A stretch of 64,000 nt of DNA from contig NZ_CANMTE010000009.1 of the NCBI RefSeq assembly GCF_947500795.1, positions 1-64,000 of the forward strand. The letters are read 5' to 3'. Below are positions 12,304 to 34,206 of the stretch, in pieces (the stretch's first letter is position 1; every line of letters starts with the position of its first letter). Position numbers and translations under genes: made by a program. A model generated the notes under the pieces. The model saw nothing but the letters and a program-made list of their open reading frames with translations. It was not told the DNA's origin and did no database searches. The DNA comes from an uncultured Gelidibacter sp. (GTDB taxonomy: Bacteria; Bacteroidota; Bacteroidia; Flavobacteriales; Flavobacteriaceae).

Positions 12304-12323
12304 TGATTAAATAATTAAACGCG

Positions 12324-17852: not shown

Positions 17853-18027
17853 GAATAAAGAATAGAGAATAGAGAAAGGGGAATAACGAATACTGAATTT
17901 TGAATAGCGAATACTGAATTCTGAATACTGGATTCTGAATACTGGATTCTGAAGACTGAATACTGAGGACTGAATACTGAGGACTGAATACTGAGGACTG
18001 AAAACTGAATACTGAATACCGAATGGT
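17853..18027 (+). repeat. Heptad array A: 25 units, starting at the stop codon
   Basis: Twenty-five consecutive 7-nt units in a single register, without indels, begin at the base after the TAA of the glycosyltransferase. Early units are GAATAAA and GAATAGA; later ones are GAATACT alternating with GGATTCT and GAGGACT. All units begin with G. Nearly every unit carries TAA, TAG or, across the joint, TGA. Units 16-21 form a 14-nt higher-order repeat (GAATACT GAGGACT, three times). Confidence 0.9.
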
Positions 18028-18196
18028 TTTGAATTATTAACGGGAATTTCGAAGTCTTCCCAAAATAAAATTTTTATAAAATTTTAATCTTGTCAAAAGA
18101 GAAATTATTAATAATTAGACATTTTTTTATAAATTTCTCTAAATTCTTGCATAATTGTGAAGACTTATTATCTTCGCTTGAAGACTATCCTAACTA
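18028..18196. other. Upstream region of the priming transferase gene
   Basis: An AT-rich stretch between the heptad array and the priming transferase. It holds the promoter at 18147-18176 and no gene. Confidence 0.6.
18147..18176 (+). promoter_or_regulatory. Bacteroidota-type promoter for the priming transferase gene
   Basis: TTG (18147-18149), 19 nt, TATCTTCG (18169-18176), close to the consensus TTG-N19-TAnnTTTG. The ATG at 18197 lies about 14 nt past the expected start of transcription. Confidence 0.55.
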
Positions 18197-19588
18197 ATGT
18201 CAAAGAAAGCCATCCATTTTCAAGTTTCAGAGCGTAAACTTCTGCTCAGAGGTTTCGATTTGCTGATGGTGCTACTCGGACTTTATGTATTGGGACTCTT
18301 TTTTGAGAAGGAATTTTTAGAGATCAGTTGGAATAATCGTACGGCCGTTCTTATCCTTCTTTTTTACATCGCTGTTTTCGGGACCGTATTCGAACTCTAT
18401 GATCTACAGAAATCGAGCAGATTGGATGTAACCTTTAGGAATGTCGTATTTGCAGTTTCTACCGCTGCCATATTGTATTTTTTAACCCCCATATTAACGC
18501 CTTTCTTGCCGGATAAACGCCATCAGATCGTCTATTTTTATCTTACCATTATCTTTTCCATCTTTGCTTGGCGAACCGCTTACACAAAGTTAATTGCTTC
18601 GCCGCGATTTTATAAAAAGGTATTGTTGGTGGGCGAAGTGGCGCATTTGGACGATTTCGTGAAAGGGCTCGTTCAGGCAGATCCCAATTATAAGATTGTT
18701 GGATTTATCAATTGTCATGGTCCAAAGGAAAATGCTCAGAAATCGAGGACCATACAAGAGTACCCACCCCATGCTTTGATGCAGGTCATTAAAGCGCAGA
18801 GTATATCGGAAGTAGTTGTAGCGAGTTACGATTCGGAAACGATAACCACAGAAATTTACAACGATTTGATGCTGCTTTTAGAACGTGGATTTACCATTCG
18901 CGAGTATACCCAGGTGTATGAAGAAATTACCTATCGCGTTCCGCTACAGTTTATCGGTAAGGATTTTTATAAGTACTTCCCTTTCAGTCGCAGTAATCAG
19001 AATACCTTATACCTCTTTTTTAACCGTCTTTTTGATATCCTGTTTTCAGTGTTTGGCTTGTTTTGTGGGCTATTGATGCTGCCGTTTATTCTCGTCGGCA
19101 ATCTTTGCGGCAATAAAGGTCCTCTGTTTTACAGACAGGAACGCGTTGGTAAAAACGGAAAAGTTTTTAAGATTATTAAACTGCGCACAATGATTGTCAA
19201 TGCAGAAGCAAATGGGGCGAAGTGGGCTGAATTTAATGATTCCAGAATCACTAAATTTGGAAGGTTTCTAAGGCGCAGTCGGATTGATGAAATTCCTCAG
19301 TTTATAAACATACTCAAGGGCGACATGAGTGTTATTGGTCCGCGCCCTGAACGTCCATGCTTTATTAATGAACTCTCACAATCCATTCCGTTTTATGAAA
19401 CCCGACATATCGTAAAACCTGGACTCACCGGCTGGGCGCAGGTGAAAACAAGGTACGGTGCCTCTGTTGATGAAAGTCATGTAAAGTTACAGTACGATCT
19501 TTTCTACATTAAGCATAGAAGCTTCTTTTTGGATCTCAATATTATGGTGAAGACCTTGAGTACGGTGTTGTATTATAGGGGGCAGTAG
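18197..19588 (+). CDS. Exopolysaccharide priming glycosylphosphotransferase (WcaJ/WbaP type)
   Basis: This membrane enzyme transfers a hexose-1-phosphate to undecaprenyl phosphate and so starts the repeat unit. The N-terminal half has four hydrophobic segments and a Rossmann-like region (KVLLVGEVAHLDDFVK). The C-terminal sugar transferase domain has one membrane segment, then GPLFYRQERVGKNGK, KLRTM, SRIDEIPQFIN, KGDMSVIGPRPERP and KPGLTGWAQV, all hallmarks of the family. 463 aa, normal length. It has its own promoter and closes the glycan locus. Confidence 0.93.
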   Translation: MSKKAIHFQVSERKLLLRGFDLLMVLLGLYVLGLFFEKEFLEISWNNRTAVLILLFYIAVFGTVFELYDLQKSSRLDVTFRNVVFAVSTAAILYFLTPILTPFLPDKRHQIVYFYLTIIFSIFAWRTAYTKLIASPRFYKKVLLVGEVAHLDDFVKGLVQADPNYKIVGFINCHGPKENAQKSRTIQEYPPHALMQVIKAQSISEVVVASYDSETITTEIYNDLMLLLERGFTIREYTQVYEEITYRVPLQFIGKDFYKYFPFSRSNQNTLYLFFNRLFDILFSVFGLFCGLLMLPFILVGNLCGNKGPLFYRQERVGKNGKVFKIIKLRTMIVNAEANGAKWAEFNDSRITKFGRFLRRSRIDEIPQFINILKGDMSVIGPRPERPCFINELSQSIPFYETRHIVKPGLTGWAQVKTRYGASVDESHVKLQYDLFYIKHRSFFLDLNIMVKTLSTVLYYRGQ

Positions 19589-19612
19589 GGGAGTTGGGAT
19601 TTACGATTTACG

Positions 19613-19647
19613 ACCCGCCCGAACGTCCGTTTTCGGTACGGGCGGGT
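19613..19647 (+). terminator. GC-rich hairpin, possible terminator
   Basis: ACCCGCCCG (19613-19621) pairs with CGGGCGGGT (19639-19647); inside, CCG and CGG can pair around TTTT. No T-run follows, so a factor-independent terminator is not certain. It lies 24 nt after the priming transferase gene. Confidence 0.5.
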
Positions 19648-19656
19648 TGATGATTT

Positions 19657-19716
19657 TTGAAGTTGAAATTGAAGCAGAAATTGAAGTTGAAGCTGAATTT
19701 GAAAATGAAACTGAAA
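19657..19716 (+). repeat. Degenerate hexamer array, 10 units
   Basis: Ten 6-nt units in one register: TTGAAG, TTGAAA, TTGAAG, CAGAAA, TTGAAG, TTGAAG, CTGAAT, TTGAAA, ATGAAA, CTGAAA. The core TGAA is shared with the ACTGAAN heptads elsewhere in the window. Confidence 0.8.
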
Positions 19717-19802
19717 CCGATTTAAAGTTTATTTGTATAATTATAAGTTGTGATATGTAGTAAGTGTGTTTTCAAGAATTCAGAACGAAATTTCAAACTT
19801 AC

Positions 19803-19858
19803 ATAAACCCATAAACCCATAAACCCATAAACCCATAAACCCATAAACCCATAAACCC
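19803..19858. repeat. Octamer microsatellite ATAAACCC x7
   Basis: Seven perfect copies of ATAAACCC (19803-19858), running directly into the heptad array on the right through a partial eighth unit. Slippage could change the copy number. Confidence 0.92.
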
Positions 19859-19914
19859 ATAAACTCCTCAACTCACACCTCCAACCTCACACCTCCAACC
19901 TCCAACCTCACACC
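19859..19914 (-). repeat. Heptad array D after the lnt stop codon
   Basis: Read on the minus strand from the base after the TGA of the lnt gene: GGTGTGA GGTTGGA GGTTGGA GGTGTGA GGTTGGA GGTGTGA, then two diverged heptads, then the GGGTTTAT octamers. There is no gap between the stop codon and the first unit. Confidence 0.85.
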
Positions 19915-21504
19915 TCAAGAAACCCTACTCCTTCTAAACATCGTAATCAGAAACACAAATAGTGCTACGAAAATCGCGATGCGTGCTATATAATCGCCGG
20001 CGCGTGTGTAGAACGTGATTTTTTCGTTGGTGGTTAATGTGCCTGCCAAAGCGCCTTGTGTATTATAATCTAGGGAAGACATAATTTCTCCCTTGGCATT
20101 AATCAGCGCTGAGATGCCTGTGTTGGCACTTCTAACGATATCTCTACGGGTTTCTATCGCTCGTAAGCGGGCATAACTTAAATGTTGCTTATGACCTTGC
20201 GTTTCACCCCACCACGCATCGTTTGTGATGATAGCGAGAACAGTAGCGCCATTTTGGACATAACCGGTTACAAACTCGCCGTACACCGACTCATAACAAA
20301 TGATGGGCGCGGCAATTAAATTTGGATTGTCAGTAGTAAACACACCCCGCTCGTCTTGTGTGGTTTTCATAGCCAGTGTACCTCCTAAATCAATCATAAA
20401 ATCGCCAATGAGTGGTTTTATAATTTCTTGATACGGTAAAGTCTCGACGCCAACTACCAATTTCGATTTGTGATACAGTTGCACACTATCACTTTTGTTC
20501 AGCATCATCGCTGAATTGTAGTCATCATACCAAATTCCGCTGCTATGGTAATTGGACTGTTCTTTTATTTTCGATTTATCGGTAATGAAATTGATAAAAG
20601 AGATTCCTGTTAGCAGGTTCATATTGGGATGTTCCGATATGTATGCATCCAGTTTACTTTTAAAGTACATGTCTTCCAGCTGATTGATTTTGACATTATC
20701 TGCAAAAACGGTTTCAGGAGCAACCACTAGATCTGTTTTGGATGTGATTTTATCGTCCGTCAGGGTTAATAGCAAATCTGCTACCGCCTCGTTAGGCACA
20801 TTATACTTTTCAGAATAGGGGTCGATATTAGGTTGTAAAGCGATAACATTTACTTGTTCACCTTCAATGTTGTAACTGTGATAGATGCCTAAAGAGATTA
20901 GAATCGGTAAAAAAATTATGCTTACAACGATAATTCCATCTGTTTGAATCGACTTTACCGATTTTTCAGCGGCATACTTTAAGATTCCTTTGTAGATAAG
21001 AATATTCACTATCCAAACCCATAAGGTGCCGCCAAAAGTGCCTGTGTATTCGTACCATTGAATCCACGTAAAGTATTCTGAAAATCCATTGCCTAAATTC
21101 AACCATGGCCACGAAAAATCCCATCCTAAGTGTAGTTTTTCAAAGGCCATCCATAAACACATTAAAAACAATAAGCTGATGTTGGTTGTTGCACGCTTCG
21201 CAATGCTATGGTATAGCACCATCATAATGGACATCAACATGGAGTTGACCAATATGGCAAAACTAGCACCAAACACGTCCGCATATTGCAGCCAGTTTGT
21301 AGTAATATAATTCCAGATGACAAATCCGAAATAACTGTATCCGAATACGGCCAGTTTTTTCCAGCGAATTTCTGAAACCCTGACACGCTGTTCCATCATC
21401 AATAATGGGACAAAACCTATAAAAAGCAAGAGAGGAACGCCATAAGTAGGCCAACCTAAAGCTAAGATGAATCCTGAGAGTATGGCTAATAAGAAATTTT
21501 TCAT
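19915..21504 (-). CDS. lnt: Apolipoprotein N-acyltransferase
   Basis: Adds the third acyl chain to lipoproteins in the inner membrane. The first ~210 residues hold about six membrane segments; the nitrilase-type domain follows. The catalytic Glu-Lys-Cys set is visible: E264 in VVAPETVF, K346 in YHKSKLVVGVE and C403 in APIICYESVYGE. A final membrane helix closes the protein. 529 aa, the usual length. It stands alone on the minus strand, with repeat arrays on both sides; array D starts at its stop. Confidence 0.93.
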   Translation of the reverse strand: MKNFLLAILSGFILALGWPTYGVPLLLFIGFVPLLMMEQRVRVSEIRWKKLAVFGYSYFGFVIWNYITTNWLQYADVFGASFAILVNSMLMSIMMVLYHSIAKRATTNISLLFLMCLWMAFEKLHLGWDFSWPWLNLGNGFSEYFTWIQWYEYTGTFGGTLWVWIVNILIYKGILKYAAEKSVKSIQTDGIIVVSIIFLPILISLGIYHSYNIEGEQVNVIALQPNIDPYSEKYNVPNEAVADLLLTLTDDKITSKTDLVVAPETVFADNVKINQLEDMYFKSKLDAYISEHPNMNLLTGISFINFITDKSKIKEQSNYHSSGIWYDDYNSAMMLNKSDSVQLYHKSKLVVGVETLPYQEIIKPLIGDFMIDLGGTLAMKTTQDERGVFTTDNPNLIAAPIICYESVYGEFVTGYVQNGATVLAIITNDAWWGETQGHKQHLSYARLRAIETRRDIVRSANTGISALINAKGEIMSSLDYNTQGALAGTLTTNEKITFYTRAGDYIARIAIFVALFVFLITMFRRSRVS

Positions 21505-21552
21505 TGGGTAAATTTACAAACTAATTGGTTAGGATGGAATATGGAGGATTGG

Positions 21553-21692
21553 GAATATAGAATAGAGAATAGAGAATAGAGAATAGAGAATAAAGAATTA
21601 AGATACAAGTATTAAGAATTAAGAACCAAGAATCAAGAATCAAGAACCAAGAAACTTGAAACATAAAACCTGAAATCAAAAACCTGAAACAA
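21553..21692. repeat. Heptad array B: 20 units next to the PorV-like gene's stop
   Basis: Twenty 7-nt units in one register on the plus strand: GAATATA, GAATAGA (four times), GAATAAA, GAATTAA, then GAATCAA/GAACCAA and at the end GAAACAT, AAAACCT, GAAATCA, AAAACCT, GAAACAA. The array ends 2 nt from the stop codon (21695) of the minus-strand gene. It fills most of the gap between lnt and that gene. Confidence 0.88.
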
Positions 21693-21694
21693 AA

Positions 21695-22765
21695 TTATCT
21701 AAACACGCTGAAATCTAATTTTAATGAAAACACGTTAGAGTAGAGGGCAGCACTTTGATCGCCAATATCTGTAAACGCATAGTCGATTTGAATGCCTCGG
21801 TATTTGAATCCGACTCCAAAATTAGGCTGAAAGCTTAAATTTTCAGAATTATCAAGTTGGAGTTCATTTTGGAAATTACCCACGCCCGCTCTTAAAAATA
21901 CCAATTCAGTGTATCCAAATTCGAAACCTAAAGACGGGGTGATGCTTGCAAATGAGGTTGAAAACACATCATTATTTTGCTCAAAACGTACATTAAGATC
22001 TAATGCGGTGACTAGGGAATAATCATAGTGAAACACAAACTTTTTAGACATGCCTAGTTGTAATTTCGGAATAGTCAACTCGGTCGATTCAGGAACTTCC
22101 TGATTTTGGCCTTCCACAGCATCTTCAATGGCGGCGAGCTTTTCCTTATCGAAAGTCCAAGCGTTAAATGTCGTAGTAATATCTCTTGCCATCACTCCAA
22201 ATTTCCAATCGTTTTGAGATTGAAACTGAATGCCCGCATCGAGTCCGAATCCCCAGGACGAAGCAAAATCACCAATAATGCGTCGGATGACCTTGGCATT
22301 CACGCCATAGCTAAATCCGTCCAACGGAATCTTGCGCGCATAAGAAAAGGTTAGTCCATAATCGGCCGTAGAAAAGAGATTAATCCGATCATAATTAATG
22401 TTGCCTTGGTCGTCAAGCAACTGCGTGGTATCTAAAATATCATCTACTCCAAATCGTATCAACGAGATGCCTACCGCACTTCGGTCATCGATTGGCATCG
22501 CAAATGCGAGATAATTATAATTGGCAATATTCGCAAAATAACTCGAGTGCATCAACGCTATTTGGTTGTCCTCCAGCTTGGTCAATCCAGCAGGATTCCA
22601 ATACCCTGAGTTTACATCTGCAGATTGTGACACCACGGCATTACTCATTCCTAAGGCAGCAGCATCTACACCAATATTCATAAATTCATTGGAATATTTA
22701 CGTGCTTTCTGGCCATAAGCAAGAATTGTCAATAGGAAGACTACAACAAAGGCACGTGTTTTCAA
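21695..22765 (-). CDS. PorV/PorQ-family outer-membrane barrel protein
   Basis: A signal peptide (MKTRAFVVVFLLTILAYGQ) precedes a beta-rich sequence with the family start: GVDAAALGMSNAVVSQSADV then YWNPAGL. The rest alternates aromatic and polar residues as in an outer-membrane barrel, ending in the typical aromatic C-terminus (FSVFR). 356 aa. PorV and PorQ serve type IX secretion, but this family also has paralogues of unknown role; no other T9SS gene is near, so I keep the call at family level. Confidence 0.8.
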   Translation of the reverse strand: MKTRAFVVVFLLTILAYGQKARKYSNEFMNIGVDAAALGMSNAVVSQSADVNSGYWNPAGLTKLEDNQIALMHSSYFANIANYNYLAFAMPIDDRSAVGISLIRFGVDDILDTTQLLDDQGNINYDRINLFSTADYGLTFSYARKIPLDGFSYGVNAKVIRRIIGDFASSWGFGLDAGIQFQSQNDWKFGVMARDITTTFNAWTFDKEKLAAIEDAVEGQNQEVPESTELTIPKLQLGMSKKFVFHYDYSLVTALDLNVRFEQNNDVFSTSFASITPSLGFEFGYTELVFLRAGVGNFQNELQLDNSENLSFQPNFGVGFKYRGIQIDYAFTDIGDQSAALYSNVFSLKLDFSVFR

Positions 22766-22972
22766 TAGCGATAATTTTTACAAAGATGCATATTATTTTT
22801 ATTCTATATCACTTCAAGGGCACGGCAATGTTGTCGCTAAAAAAGGCATTTACGGTCAAAGAAAAAATTAAATAACGTAGACCGCCATTTTTTTGACGAA
22901 ATAAGCATTCAATTATGCCTCATAAGCATTTTCTTATAAAAATAGTTTGTTATTTTTACACAAACTTACACC

Positions 22973-23728
22973 ATGGCTATAAAAAGACATCTTCCGAATA
23001 TCATCACGCTACTCAATCTGTTTTGCGGTAGTATCGCGGTATTATTTGCCGTTCAGAATAATTTTGTTGCCGCAGCACTTTTTGTGTTTTTAGGCATCTT
23101 CTTCGACTTTTTTGATGGACTTGTTGCCAGAAAACTGAATGTCCAAAGTCCCTTAGGTCTCCAATTGGATTCCTTAGCGGACATGGTGACCAGCGGATTG
23201 GTGCCGGGGATTGTCATGTTCAAGTTACTGACTTTAGCAACCAATAGCAGCACTTTTATGATTGGTGACGAGTGGGGAAGTGCATTGCACTGGGTTTCTA
23301 TTAGTTTTTCGCCATTAGCATTAATAGGATTGTTTATAACCTTGGCGTCCGCATACCGATTGGCAAAATTCAATTTGGATGAAGATCAGCAGACGACATT
23401 TACCGGATTGCCAACACCTGCCAATGCCTTGTTGATTATTTCCCTGCCATTGATTATGGAATTCCAGAACAGCAATGCCATAAATGCTGTTATCTTAAAT
23501 CCATGGTTTCTGGTGGCCATGACATTTTTAAGCTGTTACTTGCTCAATGCGAACATCAAATTGTTTGCCTTGAAGTTTAAGGATTGGAGTTTTAAAAACA
23601 ATGCCGTCCGTTATATCTTCATTATTTTATGTGCGATTTTTATCATATTGTTCAAATTTGTTGCCATACCGATCATCATCGTTTTTTACGTCTTATTATC
23701 TTTGTTTTCTAAAACTTTAACAAGGTAA
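22973..23728 (+). CDS. pssA: CDP-diacylglycerol-serine O-phosphatidyltransferase
   Basis: A membrane CDP-alcohol phosphatidyltransferase. The catalytic signature DG-x2-AR-x8-G-x3-D-x3-D fits exactly at residues 48-70 (D48, G49, A52, R53, G62, D66, D70). About eight hydrophobic segments follow. It should make phosphatidylserine, the precursor of phosphatidylethanolamine. The N-terminus KRHLPNIITLLNLFCG is typical of PssA, which favours serine over glycerol-phosphate as the acceptor. 251 aa. The DUF808 gene begins 38 nt downstream. Confidence 0.9.
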   Translation: MAIKRHLPNIITLLNLFCGSIAVLFAVQNNFVAAALFVFLGIFFDFFDGLVARKLNVQSPLGLQLDSLADMVTSGLVPGIVMFKLLTLATNSSTFMIGDEWGSALHWVSISFSPLALIGLFITLASAYRLAKFNLDEDQQTTFTGLPTPANALLIISLPLIMEFQNSNAINAVILNPWFLVAMTFLSCYLLNANIKLFALKFKDWSFKNNAVRYIFIILCAIFIILFKFVAIPIIIVFYVLLSLFSKTLTR

Positions 23729-23766
23729 GTTTAAACAAACTCGTACTTACACTATAACAAGACGCT

Positions 23767-24642
23767 ATGGCTTCAGGATTTTTTGCATTACTAGATGATA
23801 TTGGTGCCCTTATGGACGATGTAGCCGCTATGGCTAAAATTTCTACTAAAAAAACTGCCGGAATTTTAGGTGATGATTTGGCTGTAAATGCGGAAAAAGC
23901 TTCTGGATTTGTAGCCTCACGAGAAATTCCTGTGCTTTGGGCCATAACAAAAGGCTCCTTTGTAAATAAACTCATTATTTTGCCTGTTGCTTTCTTGCTC
24001 AGTGCCTTTTTGCCTGTAGCAGTAACGGTCATCTTGATATTAGGAGGTATTTACTTGGCTTACGAGGGTGCAGAAAAAATTTATGAATATTTGGTTCCAC
24101 ATCACGATGGTGTTGAAGCGGTGCAGACTGAAGGCTTGTCAGAGGCTGATATCCTTGAAATAGAAAAAACCAAAATCAAGTCCGCTATTGTCACTGATTT
24201 TATTTTATCTGTAGAAATTGTAATTATCGCTTTGGGGAGTGTTGTTGGTCAATCGCTGCTCATTCAAATTTTAGTGGTGAGTATTGTGGCGCTGATTGCC
24301 ACTGTAGGTGTTTATGGAATTGTGGCTTTAATTGTCAGAATGGACGATTTTGGATACCGGTTGATCCGCTTAAATGATAAGGATAAGAGTACTTCTGATT
24401 TCTTCGGTCACTTATTGGTAAATGCCTTGCCTTGGGTGATTAAAAGCTTAGGTGTGATTGGAACAATAGCCTTAATCTTAGTGGCTGGTGGTATTTTTGC
24501 TCATAATTTAGAGTTTTTACACCATTTCTTAGAGTCTTGGCCATCCATCATTAAAGAGTTTGTGATTGGGCTTGCCTTTGGGGCAGTGGCTTTGTTGGTT
24601 TTTACGGGGGTAAAGAAGGTGATTGGGGGTTTTAGGAAGTAG
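23767..24642 (+). CDS. DUF808 family membrane protein (YedI-like)
   Basis: The opening MASGFFALLDDIGALMDDVAAM and the following KTAGILGDDLAVNAE region are the hallmark of DUF808 proteins such as E. coli YedI. Six or so membrane segments are evident (residues 75-110, 140-185, 220-250, 265-285). The function is unknown for the family. 291 aa. It probably shares a transcript with pssA. A 25-nt repeat begins 2 nt after its TAG. Confidence 0.88.
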   Translation: MASGFFALLDDIGALMDDVAAMAKISTKKTAGILGDDLAVNAEKASGFVASREIPVLWAITKGSFVNKLIILPVAFLLSAFLPVAVTVILILGGIYLAYEGAEKIYEYLVPHHDGVEAVQTEGLSEADILEIEKTKIKSAIVTDFILSVEIVIIALGSVVGQSLLIQILVVSIVALIATVGVYGIVALIVRMDDFGYRLIRLNDKDKSTSDFFGHLLVNALPWVIKSLGVIGTIALILVAGGIFAHNLEFLHHFLESWPSIIKEFVIGLAFGAVALLVFTGVKKVIGGFRK

Positions 24643-24643
24643 G

Positions 24644-24807: not shown

Positions 24808-24868
24808 GCGTACGTGAGTTGAAAATTTAATCTGCCGAAAGATTCCTATAGCAATGTAAACTGCCACT

Positions 24869-25609: not shown

Positions 25610-25660
25610 TGACTTTGTTTAATAGAACAAACTTACAATTTTTAATTTTATTGAAACAGC

Positions 25661-26828: not shown

Positions 26829-27793
26829 TATATGATGCCTTCTTTGATGAGGTCATGAATATGCACTACACCAGCATACTTACCTTCGTGTTCTACTAAT
26901 AGTTGAGAAATTCCATTACTTTCCATAAGTTCCTTGGCGTCTACAGCCATAGCTTCGTCGTCAATGCGCTTAGGATTTGAACTCATAATGTCTTTGGCAG
27001 TCAAATGAATAAATTCATCGCTTTTGGTCAACATGCGTCGCAAATCGCCATCTGTAATAATACCCACAATTTTATCGTCTTCAACAACGGCAGTGACGCC
27101 TAACATTTTTTCAGAAATTTCAACTATCACTTGTTTCACATTGGTATCCAAACCAACTTGAGGCTTCTGATTCATAGAAGACAAATCGTTGACGCGCATA
27201 TACAAGCGCTTGCCGAGGGCACCACCTGGGTGGTATTTTGCAAAATCAGTACTTGAGAAACCTCTCAATTCCAAAAGACAGATCGCTAACGCATCACCAA
27301 TAACCAATTGTGCAGTAGTACTCGTGGTAGGCGCGAGATTATTAGGGCAGGCTTCCTGAGCAACAAAAGCGTTTAAAACATAATCCGCTTGCTGGCCTAA
27401 AAAGGAAGTGGTATTCCCAGTAATAGCAATCATTTTATTTTTGGCATTCTTTATTAAAGGCACCAATACTTTGATTTCTGGCGTGTTCCCGCTTTTAGAG
27501 ATGCAAATAACCACATCATCCTGTAAAATAAGCCCTAAATCGCCGTGAATGGCATCAGCAGCGTGCATAAAAACAGCAGGCGTACCGGTAGAATTTAGTG
27601 TGGCGACAATTTTATTGGCGATAATGGCACTTTTTCCGATGCCTGTAATGATGACCCTTCCCTTAGATTTGTAAATGAGTTCTACAGCGTCGGCAAAATC
27701 ATCAGTTAATAGATTGGCAAGATTCGAAATTGCTGAACTCTCTAAGTCAATGGTTTTTTTAGCAGTACTTAGAATAGAATTTTTAATATTCAA
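26828..27793 (-). CDS. kpsF: D-arabinose 5-phosphate isomerase
   Basis: Converts ribulose 5-phosphate to arabinose 5-phosphate, the first step to Kdo. The N-terminal SIS domain has GKSAIIANKIVATLNSTGTP and the serine-rich CISKSGNTPE; two CBS domains follow (about residues 205-321). 321 aa. The family is KdsD/KpsF/GutQ; LPS context (lptB in the same run) supports the Kdo role. Expressed divergently from recQ across 86 nt. Confidence 0.9.
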   Translation of the reverse strand: MNIKNSILSTAKKTIDLESSAISNLANLLTDDFADAVELIYKSKGRVIITGIGKSAIIANKIVATLNSTGTPAVFMHAADAIHGDLGLILQDDVVICISKSGNTPEIKVLVPLIKNAKNKMIAITGNTTSFLGQQADYVLNAFVAQEACPNNLAPTTSTTAQLVIGDALAICLLELRGFSSTDFAKYHPGGALGKRLYMRVNDLSSMNQKPQVGLDTNVKQVIVEISEKMLGVTAVVEDDKIVGIITDGDLRRMLTKSDEFIHLTAKDIMSSNPKRIDDEAMAVDAKELMESNGISQLLVEHEGKYAGVVHIHDLIKEGII

Positions 27794-27811
27794 AATTTAT
27801 TATTTTTCGGT

Positions 27812-27841
27812 TTGATGCATATAAAGAATATTGTATCTTTA
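27812..27841 (+). promoter_or_regulatory. Promoter for recQ
   Basis: TTG (27812-27814), 19 nt, TATCTTTA (27834-27841), one base off TAnnTTTG. The recQ ATG is at 27880. Confidence 0.5.
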
Positions 27842-27849
27842 ATCCTATG

Positions 27850-27857
27850 CAAATGTA
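27850..27857 (-). promoter_or_regulatory. -7 box for the kpsF-tatC run
   Basis: TACATTTG on the minus strand, an exact TAnnTTTG, 57 nt before the kpsF start. No clear TTG was found at the expected distance. Confidence 0.4.
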
Positions 27858-27879
27858 TATAAAATACTAATAGGGATTA

Positions 27880-30081
27880 ATGAACAAAGAAGAAATTGAC
27901 TTACATGCATCACTAAAAAAATACTTTGGATTTTCTAAATTTAAAGGGCTCCAGGAAAGCGTTATAAAAAGCTTAGTCTCAGGAGATAATACTTTCGTGA
28001 TCATGCCAACCGGTGGTGGTAAATCTTTATGTTATCAGCTGCCAGCGCTTATTAAAGATGGAACTGCAATTATTGTTTCGCCACTAATTGCACTGATGAA
28101 GAACCAGGTGGATGCTATAAGAGCGGTCTCCCAAAATGATGGCATAGCCCATGTTTTAAACTCCTCGTTAAATAAAACCGAAATAAAACAGGTTAAAGAA
28201 GATATTACAAACGGTATTACCAAGCTGCTTTATGTGGCACCTGAGTCCTTGACAAAGGAAGAAAATGTACAGTTTTTAAGATCGGTAACCGTATCATTTA
28301 TGGCGGTAGATGAGGCCCATTGTATTAGTGAATGGGGCCATGATTTTAGACCGGAATACCGAAACCTCAGACATATTATAAAACGTATTGGAGATAATAT
28401 CCCGATTATTGGCTTAACCGCTACGGCGACGCCTAAAGTGCAGGAGGATATTCTTAAAAGTTTGGACATTACAGATGCCAATACTTTTAAAGCTTCTTTT
28501 AATAGGCCAAACCTCTATTATGAGGTGCGACCAAAAACAAAAAATGTAGATTCTGATATTATCCGTTTTGTGAAACAAAATGAAGGCAAGTCGGGCATTA
28601 TCTATTGTTTGAGTCGCAAGCGTGTTGAAGAATTGGCGCAGGTACTTCAAGTGAATGGTATAAAAGCCGTGCCTTATCACGCAGGATTGGATGCTAAAAC
28701 CCGAGTGAAACATCAGGATATGTTTTTGATGGAAGATGTGGATGTGGTTGTAGCAACCATTGCTTTCGGGATGGGGATTGATAAACCGGATGTCCGATTT
28801 GTAATTCACCATGATATTCCAAAAAGTATCGAAAGTTACTACCAAGAAACAGGACGTGCAGGACGTGATGGTGGCGAAGGCCACTGTTTAGCGTTTTACG
28901 CCTATAAGGATATAGAAAAATTAGAAAAATTCATGTCAGGAAAACCTGTTGCAGAACAGGAAATCGGACATGCTCTTTTACAGGAAGTGGTTGCTTTTGC
29001 TGAAAGCTCCTTGTCCAGACGTAAATTTATTCTCCATTATTTCGGTGAAGAATTCGACAACGAAACTGGTGAAGGCGGCGATATGGATGACAATGTACGT
29101 TATCCAAAGAAACAACACGAAGCGCAGGACGATGTTGTAGTGCTATTAGAAACAGTGGCGCACACCAACGATAAATATAAATCGAAAGATCTGGTGCATG
29201 TGATTACGGGCAAATCGAATGCCTTGATTTCTTCGCACAAAACAGATACAATGCCCTTTTTCGGGATTGGTCAGGATAAAGATAAACGTTATTGGATGGC
29301 GTTGATTCGTCAAGTATTGGTGGCTGGATTATTGAAAAAGGACATTGAAACCTATGGTGTACTACGATTGACTGAAGCCGGCAAGAACTTCTTGAAATCG
29401 CCGGAATCTTTTATGATGTCTGAAGACCATGTGTTTGATGAAACTACTGACGAAAGTATTATTACTGCAGCCAAAGGTGAAGGCGGCGTAGCTGATGAGC
29501 GTTTGATGACCATGTTAAAGGACCTCAGAAAGCGCAATGCTAAAAAACTGGGTGTACCTCCGTTTGTTATATTCCAGGATCCTTCTTTGGAAGATATGGC
29601 GCTTAAATATCCAATAACCTTAGAAGAGCTGAGTAATGTTCATGGTGTAGGTGACGGTAAAGCTAAAAAATACGGTCAGGATTTTGTTAATTTAATTGCT
29701 CAGTATGTTGAGGACAATGATATTATAAGGCCTGACGACTTGGTGGTGAAAAGTACCGGGATGAATTCGGCTTTAAAGCTCTATATCATTCAGAATATAG
29801 ATCGTAAATTACCTTTGGATGATATCGCATCTGCTAAGGGTATGAGCATGAAAGATTTTATTAAGGAGTTGGAGGCGATTGTCTATTCTGGAACTAAATT
29901 AAATATCAATTATTGGATTGATGATATTCTTGATGACGATCAGCAGGAGGAAATCCATGATTATTTTATGGAGTCTGATACCGATAAAATTGACGTTGCC
30001 ATAAATGAGTTTGATGGTGATTATGATGATGAAGAATTACGTTTATATCGCATTAAATTTATTAGTGAAGTAGCAAATTAA
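27880..30081 (+). CDS. recQ: ATP-dependent DNA helicase RecQ
   Basis: A 3'-5' helicase of the RecF-type repair and fork-rescue pathways. Walker A is TGGGKS (44-49), the DEAH box lies in MAVDEAHCISEWGHDFRPEYR (about 145), and the arginine-finger motif QETGRAGRDG follows. The RQC and HRDC regions lie in the last 250 residues (LGVPPFVIFQDPSLEDMA). The four zinc-binding Cys of E. coli RecQ are not present: the region reads SLSRRKFILHYFGEEFD and then GGDMDDN. 733 aa, longer than the E. coli protein. Confidence 0.93.
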   Translation: MNKEEIDLHASLKKYFGFSKFKGLQESVIKSLVSGDNTFVIMPTGGGKSLCYQLPALIKDGTAIIVSPLIALMKNQVDAIRAVSQNDGIAHVLNSSLNKTEIKQVKEDITNGITKLLYVAPESLTKEENVQFLRSVTVSFMAVDEAHCISEWGHDFRPEYRNLRHIIKRIGDNIPIIGLTATATPKVQEDILKSLDITDANTFKASFNRPNLYYEVRPKTKNVDSDIIRFVKQNEGKSGIIYCLSRKRVEELAQVLQVNGIKAVPYHAGLDAKTRVKHQDMFLMEDVDVVVATIAFGMGIDKPDVRFVIHHDIPKSIESYYQETGRAGRDGGEGHCLAFYAYKDIEKLEKFMSGKPVAEQEIGHALLQEVVAFAESSLSRRKFILHYFGEEFDNETGEGGDMDDNVRYPKKQHEAQDDVVVLLETVAHTNDKYKSKDLVHVITGKSNALISSHKTDTMPFFGIGQDKDKRYWMALIRQVLVAGLLKKDIETYGVLRLTEAGKNFLKSPESFMMSEDHVFDETTDESIITAAKGEGGVADERLMTMLKDLRKRNAKKLGVPPFVIFQDPSLEDMALKYPITLEELSNVHGVGDGKAKKYGQDFVNLIAQYVEDNDIIRPDDLVVKSTGMNSALKLYIIQNIDRKLPLDDIASAKGMSMKDFIKELEAIVYSGTKLNINYWIDDILDDDQQEEIHDYFMESDTDKIDVAINEFDGDYDDEELRLYRIKFISEVAN

Positions 30082-30102
30082 TGTTGTTGAATATATTGAA
30101 AG

Positions 30103-30141
30103 ATTCCGCCTGTAGCAGTTGCTGTAGGCGGAATTTTTTTA
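30103..30141. terminator. Strong terminator between convergent genes
   Basis: A 14-bp stem (ATTCCGCCTGTAGC with GCTGTAGGCGGAAT, two GU pairs) around the loop AGTT, followed by seven T. It serves recQ on the plus strand; the stem could also stop the opposing transcript. Confidence 0.9.
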
Positions 30142-30155
30142 TTTGAGGAATTTTT

Positions 30156-30674
30156 TTAAACTTCTTCCGCAGGTTTTTCTTCGGATTCATTTTCAGCACG
30201 AACACCCTGGGTTGACAAACCTTCATCATAACCACCTTCAATAATAGAAAATGTAATGTGATTCTTTTTTGCAATGAGTTCTATGCTTTCGATGGTCGTT
30301 TTTGAGATTTTGGAAATGTCGTCTTTGTCTATTTCAAAATCGATGCGTGTGATGCGGCGGTTAGACCCTATCGTAGTTTCAGATTCCAACTCTTCCATAT
30401 CTGATTTTAGCTCTAGTTTAAAATCGGTCCCGTTCACAATTAAGGTAGCACCTTTAAAGGTTTTAAGCTGTAGTGTGCCAATGGTGATGGTTTTGAAGTA
30501 GTGGTAACCTGCCAATTCGCTAAGACCAGCATATAAAACATTGGTTTCTGAAATCGCAAAAGCTACTCCTTCTACATCATTGATAATATCTTGAGTGTAG
30601 GTATCTGGTTCTGATGCTTCAGTAGTTTTAGTGTTGCTAAATGCTGTGCGTAGCTTTTTAATGGAAAATTTCAT
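30156..30674 (-). CDS. Conserved hypothetical protein
   Basis: I do not recognise this protein. From ATG 30674 it has 172 aa, beginning MKFSIKKLRTAFSNTKT; an in-frame start at 30725 adds 17 residues. It is soluble, with alternating beta-rich segments (residues 30-110, e.g. TITIGTLQLKTFKGATLIV) and a charged, Glu-rich C-terminal tail (EESEEKPAEEV in part). No signal peptide. It faces recQ and shares the terminator between them. Expression as a single gene is likely. Confidence 0.6.
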   Translation of the reverse strand: MKFSIKKLRTAFSNTKTTEASEPDTYTQDIINDVEGVAFAISETNVLYAGLSELAGYHYFKTITIGTLQLKTFKGATLIVNGTDFKLELKSDMEELESETTIGSNRRITRIDFEIDKDDISKISKTTIESIELIAKKNHITFSIIEGGYDEGLSTQGVRAENESEEKPAEEV

Positions 30675-30858
30675 GGTGTTGGGATTCAATTTTGGTAAAA
30701 CTAACTTTAATAATTGAAAATCCAAAACGCACTAATTTGAAAACCTAAGCCATCACAACATCATTTTCCAGAATGCTTTTATTAGATACGTGTAATTCAA
30801 CGTAGTTTAAGCGTTTAAATCGTTGGTTCAATTCTGCCAATTCCTCTATTCAATTAAT

Positions 30859-30866
30859 TATCTTTG
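30859..30866 (+). promoter_or_regulatory. -7 box for lplA
   Basis: TATCTTTG, an exact match, 18 nt before the ATG at 30885. No well-spaced TTG upstream. Confidence 0.45.
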
Positions 30867-30884
30867 TGTTAAACTTAATGATCC

Positions 30885-31886
30885 ATGATATTTATAGAGA
30901 ACGAAGGCAATACCAATCCGAAGTTAAATTTGGCTTTGGAAGAGTATATTTTGCGACATTTCAGTGCAGATAATGATTATTTGTTGTTTTACATAAATGA
31001 GCCTTCCATCATTATTGGTCGGAATCAGAACACGTTGGAAGAAATAAATCACAACTATGTGGAGGAGAATAACATTCATATTGTGAGACGTATCTCTGGT
31101 GGTGGAGCGGTGTATCATGATTTCGGTAATCTGAACTTTAGTTTTATCACCAATCACGATGTAAAAAGCTTGAATAATTTCAAAAAATTTACAGCGCCCG
31201 TCATTAAGGTTTTAAATAATTTAGGATTAAATGCGGAGTTGAAAGGCAGAAACGATATTCAGGTAGATGAAAAGAAAATCTCGGGGACAGCACAATTCTC
31301 TACGGGCAAGCGTATGGTGAGTCACGGGACGTTATTGTTGGATACCGATTTGGGTGAAGTGGTAAACGCCCTCAATGTGAAAATGAGTAAAATCCAATCG
31401 AAAGGTCATAAATCTGTTAGAAGTCGTGTAGCTAATATTTCCGAATTCTTAAAAGAGCCCTTAGCCATTGAAGATTTCCGTCAATTGGTTTTGGAGGGAC
31501 TTTATGAAGAAAGTGAACCTTTTGAAACATATCATTTAACCTTGGAAGAATGGAGCGGGGTGCATCAATTAAAAGCGGAAAAATATGATACTTGGGATTG
31601 GAATTATGGCCGTTCTCCAAAATTTAACATCCACCGAACCAAACGTTTTCCAGTAGGGGAAATCGACCTCAGGATTTTTGTTGAGAAAGGGTATATAAAA
31701 GAGTTTAAGATTTTTGGTGACTTTTTTGGAAAAGAGCCTGTAGAACATTTGGAACAATTACTTACTGATATACGCTATGATCACAGTACAATTTCCGAAG
31801 TATTGAAAGATGTAGATTTAAACGAGTATTTTGGCGACGTTCAAAAAGAAGAAGTCATCGATTTGATATATGGAGAAGATGCGTAA
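30885..31886 (+). CDS. lplA: Lipoate-protein ligase
   Basis: Activates lipoate with ATP and attaches it to lysine of 2-oxoacid dehydrogenase and glycine cleavage proteins. The lipoate-binding RRISGGGAVYHDFGNLNFS segment is complete, as are the catalytic lysine region (DEKKISGTAQ) and the C-terminal accessory domain. 333 aa, near the length of E. coli LplA. It stands alone and is followed by a repeat-rich gap. Confidence 0.92.
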   Translation: MIFIENEGNTNPKLNLALEEYILRHFSADNDYLLFYINEPSIIIGRNQNTLEEINHNYVEENNIHIVRRISGGGAVYHDFGNLNFSFITNHDVKSLNNFKKFTAPVIKVLNNLGLNAELKGRNDIQVDEKKISGTAQFSTGKRMVSHGTLLLDTDLGEVVNALNVKMSKIQSKGHKSVRSRVANISEFLKEPLAIEDFRQLVLEGLYEESEPFETYHLTLEEWSGVHQLKAEKYDTWDWNYGRSPKFNIHRTKRFPVGEIDLRIFVEKGYIKEFKIFGDFFGKEPVEHLEQLLTDIRYDHSTISEVLKDVDLNEYFGDVQKEEVIDLIYGEDA

Positions 31887-32001
31887 ATAAACGTTTGAAT
31901 TGTACCTAAATGCCAATTTGAAGTAATAAGTTATAGAGGACTATCTACAATCTCCATATAGAGAGAATGTCAGTTTGAGCGCCATTGACAAATAAAAAAA
32001 T

Positions 32002-32178
32002 AACAAAAATGTCAGTTTGAGCGCAGTCGAAAACCTTAAATAGACAAAGCGGTTCATCTAAAATCCTTTTATGAAAAAGAAGGTCCGTTTTGATCGCGAT
32101 CCACTAATAATCATTAGTGTACCAAAAAAATGCCTATTAAAACAAAAATGTCAGTTTGAGCGCAGTCGAAAACCTTAA
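32002..32178 (+). repeat. 38-nt dispersed repeat, two perfect copies
   Basis: A 38-nt unit, from AACAAAAATGTCAG to AAACCTTAA with GTTTGAGCGCAGTCGAAA inside, is identical at 32002-32039 and 32141-32178. A third copy from 31967 matches only the ATGTCAGTTTGAGCGC half. The core recurs in both orientations at 59405-59489. TCAAACTGACAT at 32206-32217 is the inverse of the start of the second copy. Confidence 0.88.
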
Positions 32179-32220
32179 TGTGTTATTAAAGAAATTCATT
32201 TGCTATCAAACTGACATGAT

Positions 32221-32246
32221 AAATGGCTTTTATAAAGCCATTTTTT
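32221..32246 (+). terminator. Terminator hairpin
   Basis: AAATGGCTTT and AAAGCCATTT form a 10-bp stem around three bases, with six T at the end (plus strand). It lies 12 nt from the azurin stop on the other strand and may act in both directions. Confidence 0.7.
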
Positions 32247-32258
32247 GTGTAACAGAGT

Positions 32259-32771
32259 TTATTCAACAATAAATTTACCCTGCATCAACGCATAATGCCC
32301 AGGGAATGTACACATAAAAATGTAAGTTCCAGGTTCTGGAGCTTCAAACTCTATGGTTTGACTTTCGCCACCACCAAGCATTTTGGTATGCACAATAAAC
32401 TTGTCTGCCATATCCTTAGGGATATAATCATTGTCAGCAGCAGAAACAGCAGCATTACCTACAGTAGCCACATCGGCATCTTTTGTAAGTAGAGCCCAGT
32501 TATGACCCATGACCGCTTTATCCATTTTACCAACATGTTTTAAAGTCAGTTTTACGGTTTGTCCAGCTTTAACACGGATCTCAGTTTTATTGTATTTCAT
32601 TGCGTCATTACCTTCAATGGTCACAACCGCTACATTAGCGTCAGCAGTTTCAACAGGAGTGGATTTTTGTTCCACTTCTTGACCACCATAGACTTCTGTT
32701 GGAGTTTCCTTCTTTTTTTCGCCACAGCTAAACGCTACAGCAGCTAAGCATACTAAGATTAATTTTTTCAT
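32259..32771 (-). CDS. Azurin, lipoprotein form
   Basis: A blue copper electron carrier. The N-terminus is a lipoprotein signal with Cys16 (AVAFSC), then a linker rich in K, E and T, then the cupredoxin domain (from about residue 48). The copper ligands are visible: H90 (MGHNW), C154 (FMCTFPGH), H159 and M163. 170 aa, longer than soluble azurins because of the signal and linker. It is probably anchored in the periplasm and passes electrons to a cytochrome oxidase. Single gene with its own -7 box. Confidence 0.92.
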   Translation of the reverse strand: MKKLILVCLAAVAFSCGEKKKETPTEVYGGQEVEQKSTPVETADANVAVVTIEGNDAMKYNKTEIRVKAGQTVKLTLKHVGKMDKAVMGHNWALLTKDADVATVGNAAVSAADNDYIPKDMADKFIVHTKMLGGGESQTIEFEAPEPGTYIFMCTFPGHYALMQGKFIVE

Positions 32772-32806
32772 ATTTACTTAAATTTTAGATTACTACTAAG
32801 TTACTA

Positions 32807-32814
32807 CAAAATTA
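32807..32814 (-). promoter_or_regulatory. -7 box for the azurin gene
   Basis: TAATTTTG on the minus strand, an exact TAnnTTTG, 35 nt before the azurin start. No clear TTG at the usual distance. Confidence 0.45.
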
Positions 32815-32981
32815 GGGCTATTTTCAGTATTGTAATATGATTAACATCATTTGTTAATTTTAATATTTAACAGCGCGGCATTAATTATTCGGATAAATGA
32901 TGATTATTGTCAAATAATTCTGAAGGTATTCACTTTAAATGGGAAAACAGTATTGATAAATCATTTTTCCTAATCAATTTG

Positions 32982-32989
32982 TATCTTTG
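32982..32989 (+). promoter_or_regulatory. -7 box for the cyclophilin-FKBP gene
   Basis: TATCTTTG followed by CAAC. Transcription should begin near 32996, which rules out any start upstream and supports the ATG at 33015. The nearest TTG is 26 nt away, longer than usual. Confidence 0.5.
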
Positions 32990-33014
32990 CAACTTGAAAC
33001 AAAAACAAAACACA

Positions 33015-33947
33015 ATGCAAGACGGCTTATATGCGAAATTCATCACCAATAAAGGTGAGATTTTGGTGAATTTAGAATACAAAAGAACCCCAGGAACAGT
33101 TGGAAATTTTGTGGCTTTAGCGGAAGGAGATTTAGAAAATTCTGCAAAACCACAAGGGAAACCTTATTATAATGGTTTGAAGTTTCACCGTGTGATTCCT
33201 GATTTTATGATTCAAGGAGGATGTCCTTTAGGGACAGGAACTGGTGGTCCAGGTTATAAATTTGAAGATGAATTTCATCACGATTTAAGACATGATGGCC
33301 CAGGTGTTTTATCTATGGCAAACGCAGGTCCAGGGTCAAATGGAAGTCAATTTTTCATTACCCATATTGCTACTCCATGGTTAGATGATAAACACACTGT
33401 ATTTGGAAATGTGGTTGAAGGACAGGATGTTGTTGATGCTATTGCTCAAGGTGATGTTATAGAAGCTATAGAAATTGTAAGACAAGGCGAAGAGGCTGAG
33501 AATTTCAATGCTGTTGAGGCATTTAGAACTTTTGAAGGCTCAAGAGAACAACGTTTGGCTGAAGCTCGCAAAGCGAATGAAGCTGAGTTAGATAAATTGG
33601 CAGCTGGTTTTGAAAGAACAAATAGCGGATTGCGTTACCAAATTCTTCAAAAAGGAAACGGTAAAGCAGCTGAAAAAGGCAAAATGGTTTCTGTACATTA
33701 TAAAGGCCAATTAGCTGATGGTACTGTATTCGATTCTTCTTATAAGCGTAAACAACCGTTAGACTTTCAAGTAGGTGTTGGTCAGGTTATTGCTGGATGG
33801 GATGAAGGTATTTGCTTATTAAATGTAGGTGATAAAGCACGTTTGGTTATTCCTAGTGATTTAGGTTATGGCGCACAAGGTGCAGGTGGCGTTATTCCTC
33901 CAAATGCTATTTTGGTATTTGATGTGGAATTGATGGATGTAAAATAA
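33015..33947 (+). CDS. Cyclophilin-FKBP fusion peptidyl-prolyl isomerase
   Basis: Two different prolyl isomerase folds in one chain of 310 aa. The cyclophilin domain covers about residues 1-150 ([19 protein letters not shown] and [10 protein letters not shown] carry active-site residues); the FKBP domain covers about 215-310 ([18 protein letters not shown], then [18 protein letters not shown]). Dual immunophilins of this order are known from Flavobacterium. No signal peptide, so it should act in the cytoplasm. I took ATG 33015, since the -7 box at 32982 lies inside the longer frame that starts at 32907. Confidence 0.9.
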
Positions 33948-33970
33948 TCATCGATATTATATAAAATGAA

Positions 33971-33999
33971 AAACGCAACTTTTAGGGTTGCGTTTTTTT
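33971..33999 (+). terminator. Terminator of the cyclophilin-FKBP gene
   Basis: AAACGCAAC and GTTGCGTTT form a 9-bp stem with a 7-nt loop, and T residues continue to 33999. It starts 23 nt after the stop. Confidence 0.9.
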
Positions 34000-34011
34000 G
34001 TTTAATTTCTT

Positions 34012-34046
34012 GAAAAGAGAGAATAGAACGGAGAAAAGAGAATAGA
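34012..34046 (+). repeat. Short heptad array, 5 units
   Basis: GAAAAGA GAGAATA GAACGGA GAAAAGA GAATAGA in one register, similar to the units of array B. It begins 12 nt after the terminator. Confidence 0.65.
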
Positions 34047-34108
34047 GTCGTAGTTCAGATCAGTATCGTATCAACATTCATTTTACATAATTACTACAAA
34101 TTGAACTT

Positions 34109-34206
34109 CTCAGTCTTCAGTCTTCAGTCTTCAGTCTTCAGTTTTCAGTTTTCAGTTTTCAGTCTTCAATCTTCAATCTTCAGTCTTCAATCTTCAATCT
34201 TCATCC
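34109..34206 (-). repeat. Heptad array C: 14 units, starting at a stop codon
   Basis: On the minus strand, directly after the TGA (34209-34207) of the small gene: GGATGAA, GATTGAA, GATTGAA, GACTGAA, GATTGAA, GATTGAA, GACTGAA, AACTGAA three times, GACTGAA three times, GACTGAG. Fourteen units without an indel, each holding TGA. It shares the ACTGAAN core with array A. Confidence 0.92.

Follow-up and report, generated by a model that had tools for sequence, protein, structure and literature searches.

We analyzed arrays of 7-nt units (heptads) in a 64,000-nt stretch of DNA from an uncultured Gelidibacter sp. (contig NZ_CANMTE010000009.1, positions 1 to 64,000; hereafter the window), elsewhere in its genome and in related genomes. 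These arrays fill intergenic space up to the stop codon of the preceding gene, often extending slightly into its coding end, and those lying against a stop are mostly richer in G than in C in the sense of that gene. We consider it an even call, judging from sequence, that they are heptad tracts grown by slippage, belonging to the class of short tandemly repeated repetitive (STRR) sequences and long simple sequence repeats (LSSRs), in transcribed, ribosome-free space and with a transcript-linked bias. Our counts establish the strand bias itself; they do not establish its cause.

Tandem Repeats Finder and a lag scan located four arrays where a preliminary description of this DNA had placed them: A (17838..18024, plus strand), B (21531..21694, minus), C (34110..34225, minus) and D (19862..19917, minus), with about 25, 20, 14 and 8 units, respectively. 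Throughout the window, the lag scan (at least 32 matches in 42) detected lags 7 and 14 at A, B, C and D only, lag 21 at A, B and C, and lag 28 at A and C. At its lowest threshold, Tandem Repeats Finder reported period 7 at the same four places plus a few short extra rows, such as 34012-34047. The arrays had been described as beginning 0-2 nt past the stop. They are indeed flush with stops, but the periodicity of three of them enters the coding end: that of A begins at 17838, 15 nt before the end of the stop at 17852, and those of D and C extend to 19917 (3 nt) and 34225 (19 nt). Similarly, the single register without indels that had been reported is found in A at 17888-18024, B at 21553-21653, C at 34110-34203 and D at 19872-19918 (0% indels), but not in the first part of A (6-11% indels) or in B at 21651-21694 (9-11%).

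Period 7 also stands out in the genome beyond the window. The sample of this genome (G000) comprised 800 kb of the largest contig and the window, together 864 kb of 3.46 Mb. Genes were called by a simple dicodon model, and gene ends rest on simple gene callers throughout; the array-finder threshold was 15 (14 for orthology). We detected 23 lag-7 arrays in the 864 kb, compared with 0.3 per dinucleotide shuffle; shuffles were few (3-5 per period test, 3 for this count), and arrays from the same genome, or inherited from a common ancestor, do not count as independent. Lags 4, 5, 8, 10, 11 and 13 yielded 0-3 arrays each, and lags 3, 6, 9 and 12 yielded 3-6 each. Genome-wide, a 19-mer heptad pattern, allowing up to three mismatches, matched 112 times, compared with 2 matches for the reversed pattern. 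In this sample, 24 arrays were intergenic and 2 lay inside genes. In sister species of the genus, we found 13 lag-7 arrays in 196 kb of G005, 22 in 189 kb of G001, 34 in 200 kb of G007 and 2 in 200 kb of G003. The G005 sequence holds 10,796 N, which gave one false array per lag; N was excluded from this and later counts. In 200 kb from each of two other genera, there were no arrays (G026) or three (G021). Across the genus, density ranged from 10 arrays per Mb in G003 to 170 in G007, and sister species more than tenfold apart offer natural comparisons.

The excess of lag-7 matches begins at the stop codon. In G000, it was 0.0 in the last 60 nt of genes and +1.7 to +2.4 points in the bins 0-100 nt past stops. 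When G000, G001, G005 and G007 were profiled (1.45 Mb), the excess ranged from 0.0 to +0.9 between 60 and 30 nt upstream of the stop and from 0.0 to +2.3 over the final 30 nt before it; past the stop, it was +2.4 to +4.7 over the first 20 nt and +0.8 to +6.6 from there out to 250 nt. The profile is a plateau that starts at the stop, not a peak. In the 100 nt before starts, the excess was +0.1 to +1.0 in both G000 and G007, -0.2 to +2.5 in G001 and -2.9 to +2.0 in G005, and it reached up to +8.0 in a far bin of G001, 150-250 nt before starts. The preliminary description had proposed a genome-wide scan of this kind, with a lack of enrichment near stops counting against a link to stop codons; the enrichment is present, and the link holds up.

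We then counted arrays by type of intergenic space in four species with a larger G001 sample (2.25 Mb in all, also used for polarity). Among spaces of at least 60 nt, arrays were present in 61 of 717 tandem, 13 of 153 convergent and 4 of 218 divergent ones, or 78 of 1,088 in total. Of 116 arrays, 49 lay 30 nt or less from a stop; among these 49, 21 begin within the coding end, 15 of them by more than 7 nt. In a sliding test, in which each array was moved within its own intergenic space, 13 of 23 arrays of G000 lay within 15 nt of a stop, compared with a mean of 7.6 (maximum of 200 trials, 13). The corresponding values were 4 of 13 versus 1.1 in G005 (maximum 4) and 6 of 15 versus 1.5 in the 189-kb sample of G001 (maximum 5). 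Because the lag-7 excess is a plateau and the sliding enrichment is only moderate, we rejected exact anchoring at the stop, and describe the arrays as filling space up to it.

Stop-flush arrays have a strand polarity. For 43 arrays within 10 nt of a stop in the four species, the mean sense GC skew was +0.47, with 37 above +0.1 and 3 below -0.1. As background, the 60 nt past 936 array-free stops averaged -0.014; for 32 arrays more than 200 nt from a stop, the mean was -0.21. Flush arrays contained G at 0.245 and C at 0.133, compared with 0.154 and 0.162 in the background. Of 23 arrays lacking the ACTG core described below, 20 were G-over-C and 2 were the reverse. In five species (array edge within 30 nt), the skew was G-over-C in 25 versus 5 of 31 arrays after plus-strand genes and in 25 versus 4 of 31 after minus-strand genes; since the polarity is alike for both, replication strand is disfavored as its cause. 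Arrays lying in the middle of tandem spaces had no lean (30 versus 27). In the window, A, C and D are G-over-C in sense (GC skew +0.35, +0.50 and +1.0, respectively). To judge from these counts, the polarity points to the transcript, and it bears on the suggestion in the preliminary description that the arrays are elements of the 3' untranslated region (3'-UTR).

By comparison of orthologous places, presence and period outlast the unit words at five places, and polarity does so at two of them. Among reciprocal-best gene pairs from five species, an array followed the stop in both members of 9 pairs, in one member of 40 and in neither of 620 (odds ratio 14.9, Fisher p 5.8e-7; 5 places contribute the 9 pairs, which are not independent of one another). 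A smaller first table (14 both, 10 one, 152 neither) holds some matches due to AT-rich sequence or uncalled genes, and the five-species table was preferred. Two of the five places, those of A and D, were G-over-C in every species compared. The locus of lnt, the gene that precedes D, was taken from 30 genomes, and the nine of the genus were read. The lnt relatives in the eight other genus genomes were 79-86% identical. Heptads were flush with the lnt stop in three of the eight (G005, G001 and G008) and lay further out in G002 (about 134 nt past the stop) and G007 (about 142 nt), with a weak tract still further out in G003; none were listed for the lnt locus of G004 and G006. The flush words were GAGGTGT in G000, GAGGTGT and GAAGTGA in G005, and GGAGTGC/TTTGCAG in G001. 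They were C-poor in sense in all three and, by eye, also in G008. Hexamer arrays, similar in kind to the one in the window described below, were also present at the lnt loci of G005 (L042) and G001 (L043). On the other side of this locus, the AAGAAnC-type words of B were kept in G005, G001 and G004, and more loosely in G008. Array A has AAT, AGG and AAA words in common with G001, and the order of its parts in common with G005. Since the same gene keeps an array across species with partly other words, some arrays are, by this evidence, old and rewritten in place. The repeat spreading by insertion at gene ends that had been suggested earlier was not shown, and all five places keep an array in another species; the words shared between loci do leave exchange between loci possible.

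A fixed four-base core with a free triplet recurs in the arrays. When 93 arrays were detected from their periodicity without regard to words, the best-conserved four-mer was ACTG in 18 and AATC in 18; the AATC arrays came mostly from G007, and several were near-copies of one dispersed block. Four consecutive ACTG cores occurred only at periods 7 and 14 among periods 4-16 (four species). The triplets around ACTG form a small vocabulary (AAT, CCA, AAG, AAA, AAC and others) common to several loci. Runs in G001 alternate between CCN and AAN words (CC to AA 32, AA to CC 32, CC to CC 4), and word identity at two units (14 nt) was 0.393, compared with 0.235 after shuffling. Because identity exceeds the shuffle at this distance, local duplication in the G001 runs seems to proceed in 14-nt steps more than in 7-nt steps. 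Five consecutive ACTG cores were present in 18 of 59 relatives and in nine of nine genomes of the genus. The reversed control gave fewer matches in each of the nine, yet was present in six, and in G006 the two were nearly equal (7 versus 4). Among 148 Bacteroidota genomes, five ACTG cores occurred in 36 and the reversed control, five GTCA cores, in 23, some of them with more matches than ACTG. ACTG is not supported as a universally unique core at the phylum level, where the GTCA control is not rare. Three other Bacteroidota genomes (G169, G177 and G192) carry TGAC-GAG/TGAC-AAG heptads, with a fixed four-mer, a free triplet and G over C on one strand.

ACTG-core arrays are oriented relative to stops in many phyla. 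Named genomes, scanned on both strands alike for six ACTG cores spaced at period 7, contained at least 118 stretches; the record titles of those listed include cyanobacteria, acidobacteria, planctomycetes, chloroflexi, bacteroidetes, proteobacteria, lentisphaerae, firmicutes, actinobacteria and others, in a set chosen by the ACTG pattern itself. In 45 of the first 80 stretches listed, the longest run had at least three different triplets, and the rest were nearly or wholly perfect repeats. For orientation, genes were open reading frames (ORFs) of at least 100 codons and runs had at least four cores; the counts in this paragraph are among the matches listed. All 45 runs starting 0-10 nt past a stop read CAGT in sense, 10 of them in the genus and 35 at 33 named loci of many phyla. 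With other cut-offs, the CAGT:ACTG ratio was 61:1 at 0-20 nt and 65:2 at 0-30 nt, and runs of at least two units gave 53:1 at 0-10 nt and 82:7 at 0-30 nt. With overlaps included, run edges within 10 nt of a stop were CAGT in 65 cases and ACTG in 6 (12:0 in the genus, 53:6 at named loci). Each of the six exceptions runs over the end of its ORF, at which ACTGA can itself provide the stop, and may be an ORF-calling artefact. Further out, the ratio was 20:1 at 11-30 nt, 15:37 at 31-100 nt and 22:60 beyond 100 nt, where convergent-space arrays were counted once per stop and the far bins are not independent of the near ones. Orientation near starts at named loci (16 into, 4 away, within 10 nt) was set aside as a possible ORF-calling artefact because ACTGA contains TGA. 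Nineteen of 20 genes sampled from the 35 named cases had a Pfam domain, ranging from DAHP synthase to GAPDH and NusG, indicating that the preceding genes are real and of many kinds. An orientation this close to absolute (45 of 45) would mean either that transcription beyond the stop biases repeat growth or that a role in the transcript selects the strand. At L187, L190, L195 and L240, post-stop CAGT arrays and ACTG arrays form long, near-continuous hairpins, and the loop at L195 contains a terminator-like hairpin.

Within the window, array A follows a group 1 glycosyltransferase gene (16833..17852, plus strand, stop at 17850-17852; Pfam PF13692 and PF00534). It begins with GAATAGA/GAATAAA heptads and continues with ACTG-AAT, ACTG-AGG and ACTG-AAA; its first sense ACTG core lies 39 nt past the stop, and the run spans 17913-18014. 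Array B, with sense units TTGATTC/TTGGTTC and then TCTATTC, is flush with the stop of a gene for a PorV-like type IX secretion protein (21695..22765, minus; PF19572). Array C, with sense units GAAGATT/GAAGACT, is flush with the stop of a 79-aa small ORF (34207..34446, minus), which is a codon-model call without a Pfam match. Its first sense ACTG core lies 22 nt past the stop, and the run spans 34111-34163. Array D, with sense units GAGGTGT/GAGGTTG, lies 3' of the stop of lnt, encoding apolipoprotein N-acyltransferase (19915..21504, minus; Pfam LNT_N and CN_hydrolase). It is continued by an octamer array (19802..19864, minus) consisting of CATAAACC x 7.9, in sense GGTTTATG, with 100% matches and also detected at lag 8. 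GGG recurs every 8 nt in the sense of this octamer array, which could therefore form quadruplexes. The space of D also contains a hexamer array, TTGAAG/TTGAAA (19657..19716, plus), about 70 nt past the stop of a sugar transferase gene. A palindrome at 19598-19650, CCCGCCCGAACGT...GGGCGGG, is flanked by GATTNNN heptads (GATTTAC, GATTAAC); it recurs by eye in several G007 spaces (L091-L100), and palindrome and heptads may therefore spread together.

No terminator-like site (GC stem plus T run) was found within A-D; there is one at 33968-33998, in the space of C. Past it, behind a cyclophilin/FKBP gene, a weak heptad tract of GAAAAGA (34012-34047) faces array C. Six predicted RNA folds, covering stretches of A-D in sense and the antisense of A and C (A was trimmed to 138 nt, and D included the octamer), were near their shuffles (z -0.3 to -1.4), and in the folds of A-D there was no palindromic unit of 20-40 nt, as expected of repetitive extragenic palindromes (REPs) or bacterial interspersed mosaic elements (BIMEs). 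Neither an intrinsic terminator nor a folded RNA is supported as the nature of the arrays by the folds and the terminator scan. A REP-like 29-nt unit, GATTGCTTCGCTACGCTCGCAATGACTGA, occurs in four copies at 12193-12306, and spaces of G001 and G007 contain scattered sequence that looks similar by eye.

If the arrays grow by slippage with a transcript-linked bias, copies would be gained and lost by slipped-strand synthesis in steps of 7 and 14 nt. Loops of these sizes would be expected to evade mismatch repair. About four contiguous bases (ACTG; AATC/GATT in one sister species) would be held as a core for re-pairing on slippage, and the other three bases would drift. The stop codon would act as an edge because the message before it is covered by ribosomes and its coding content leaves no room for period 7. 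Past the stop, free RNA could re-pair with the template; as G-rich, purine-rich RNA would do so best, a one-way strand bias would follow. Weakest in this chain is the proposed aid to slippage from an RNA:DNA hybrid on a G-rich transcript, which is a guess. The arrays would mostly be by-products tolerated by the genes, not fail-safe stops.

Several results weigh against this reading. As for placement, no post-stop lag-7 excess was found in G003; the sliding test was near chance in G007 (4 of 35 versus 2.2, maximum 6) and gave 1 of 2 versus 0.35 in G003. Depletion within 15 nt of starts was not clear in any species by the same test (7 of 20 versus 5.8 in G000, 0 of 11 versus 0.8 in G005, 0 of 14 versus 1.2 in G001, 1 of 27 versus 1.6 in G007 and 0 of 2 versus 0.35 in G003). 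As for polarity, array B, in G005 as in the window, is neutral or C-over-G in sense; its skew is -0.19 at 21553-21694 and -0.36 for the extent used in the orthology comparison. Three of the five conserved places (B, C1 181725 and one in G001 and G005) are not G-over-C in every species compared. Within 10 nt of stops at named loci, the skew rule was weaker (40 of 79 above versus 18 of 79 below, among the matches listed), and in tandem spaces, arrays more than 30 nt from the stop but within 60 nt of the next start were C-over-G in 27 cases and G-over-C in 9. By a looser measure, the edge of the periodic array, flush arrays of the genus (30 nt) comprised 16 CAGT and 6 ACTG. Arrays A and C of the window read ACTG in sense; their runs start 60 and 43 nt past the stop, and they thus fit the outer zone, not the near-stop rule. 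As for the words, some are common to unlinked loci (identity 0.124 between runs of one genome), and word identity at one unit in G001 (0.188) was below that of the shuffle (0.234), which suggests that simple 7-nt slippage is not the main step there.

Polarity also bears on the alternative that the arrays are neutral slippage repeats only, placed where the code and promoters allow and without a transcription-linked cause. The post-stop plateau and the scarcity of arrays in divergent spaces agree with such repeats, as does a fit between 7 nt and the polymerase contact, proposed by Mrazek (cited in the available part of PMC4679880). However, neutral slippage predicts neither the 45:0 orientation (among the matches listed) nor the 37:3 skew tied to the gene strand, and is already refuted by the polarity unless this is an ORF-calling artefact; we regard it as very unlikely. 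The polarity tied to the gene would be explained by a selected 3'-UTR element, either a G-rich, weakly structured tail or a periodic CAGU tract, that binds a protein, blocks Rho, or protects or destabilizes the mRNA. Such an element is also consistent with arrays after the same gene at five places, with polarity kept at A and D, with folds near their shuffles, and with recurrence of the ACTG core in named records of many phyla (among the matches listed). Yet it is unlikely, given that only 78 of the 1,088 spaces hold an array, that many kinds of genes precede arrays, that density varies so widely within the genus (170 per Mb in G007, 10 in G003), and that flush arrays gain G more than they lose C. 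A wider version is that ACTG/CAGT heptads form one cross-phylum class of transcript-oriented elements, in which post-stop mRNA would read CAGU every seven bases, separated by three free bases, and the core, not the full unit, would be kept, being read by a conserved factor or letting arms pair in any register; the Beggiatoa TAACTGA repeats, the Microcystis and Nostoc heptads and the present arrays would be dialects of one system. We put this forward tentatively, as a somewhat unlikely possibility. No report of the CAGT-in-sense rule across phyla was found in the open-licence literature, with most subscription journals outside the search.

Pairing of arms is the essence of another candidate, an inverted-pair element with a CAGT arm, a spacer and an ACTG arm, forming a BIME-like stem-loop whose arms pair in any 7-nt register; single arrays would be remnants. 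Among the matches listed, an ACTG arm follows 30 of 89 post-stop CAGT arrays, some pairing near base for base over almost the full length, and in tandem spaces 29 ACTG runs more than 30 nt out have a CAGT partner before them, with no case of the reverse order. Rehm et al. reported 70 and 75 convergent pairs in two Xanthomonas genomes (PMC4692102, in the part available). In the genus, however, a partner was present for only 3 of 19 post-stop CAGT arrays, and sense CAGT is absent from the spaces of A, B and C and occurs once in that of D, 201 nt out. Moreover, among the matches listed, unpaired runs more than 30 nt out in tandem spaces are little ordered (26 ACTG versus 16 CAGT), and divergent named loci have no clear bias near starts (7 versus 5). 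We consider this element quite unlikely. The preliminary description had further proposed a fail-safe against readthrough, on the grounds that nearly every unit of A and C holds a stop triplet. This is true of all 14 units of C and of 20 of the 25 in A, in excess of their shuffles (8.3 and 15.2). But D (4 of 8 units, shuffle 3.4) and B (6 of 20, shuffle 4.8) have no clear excess, and one frame of B is open throughout. Among 49 stop-flush arrays of four species, all three frames are closed within 63 nt in 25, compared with 18 expected from same-letter shuffles, and 5 have no stop in any frame. Fail-safe stops are not supported as a general role by these results, and as an explanation of the arrays tandem stops are scarcely credible.

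The arrays consist of head-to-tail 7-nt units above chance and are mostly intergenic, as in the heptanucleotide class of STRRs and LSSRs. The closest analogue named in the preliminary description was the cyanobacterial STRR heptads, reportedly described by Mazel and colleagues in 1990 as intergenic, with lineage-specific words. The present arrays are similar in both respects, with different words, and the analogy stands. To our knowledge, placement relative to stops or strands has not been described for the cyanobacterial heptads. According to Mrazek et al. 2007, as cited in the available part of PMC4679880, heptads are the commonest repeat of 5-11 nt in most genomes, for which slippage was proposed, and no Bacteroidetes were among the ten richest genomes. 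No accepted explanation for the prevalence of heptads was found in the literature searched, some of it available in part. In the same portion of PMC4679880, MacGregor 2015 described direct repeats of TAACTGA, in Maribeggiatoa mostly just upstream of start codons, and heptad arrays in Gramella forsetii, Aequorivita sublithincola and Elizabethkingia, the first two having TAACTGA together with other heptamers; Cyanothece strains were noted to differ mostly by indels in 7-nt steps. The present arrays have the same unit length, and TAACTGA is ACTG-ATA, with the core common to A and C. Unlike the Maribeggiatoa repeats as described there, A-D are flush with stops, and TAACTGA was not found in their four spaces.

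The closest match in placement is the set of heptads described by Rehm et al. 2015 (PMC4692102, to the extent available), namely GGGAATC in Xanthomonas and GGGGA(C/T)T in Nostoc. These are rare between divergent ORFs and lie no more than 50 bp from a stop, in sense, or from a start, in antisense, partly as inverted pairs; 83% keep the same context in a second species, and they are mostly transcribed, with a preference for four units. They form quadruplexes in vitro, and a regulatory role could not be identified. Heptameric repeats are thus a known class, and, as far as the available text goes, Rehm et al. already gave this placement and polarity for quadruplex-forming heptads. The present arrays resemble them in having a 7-nt intergenic unit, rare in divergent spaces, near or over stops, with the G-rich strand in sense, in keeping their gene context between species with changed length, and in inverted pairs; the C-over-G lean near starts mirrors their G-rich heptads upstream of ORFs. 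Unlike the four-unit preference reported there, the window arrays have 25, 20, 14 and 8 units, and their words are more varied. Regular GGG, on which the quadruplexes of the Rehm heptads depend, was not found in the heptads of A-D: B and C lack GGG, A has one GGGG, and the heptads of D have GG only. Neither a form without regular G-tracts that has this polarity nor a constant four-base core with a free triplet was found in the open-licence literature searched. Taken together, arrays without regular G-tracts share the placement and polarity once tied to G-quadruplexes, so that quadruplexes are not needed for either.

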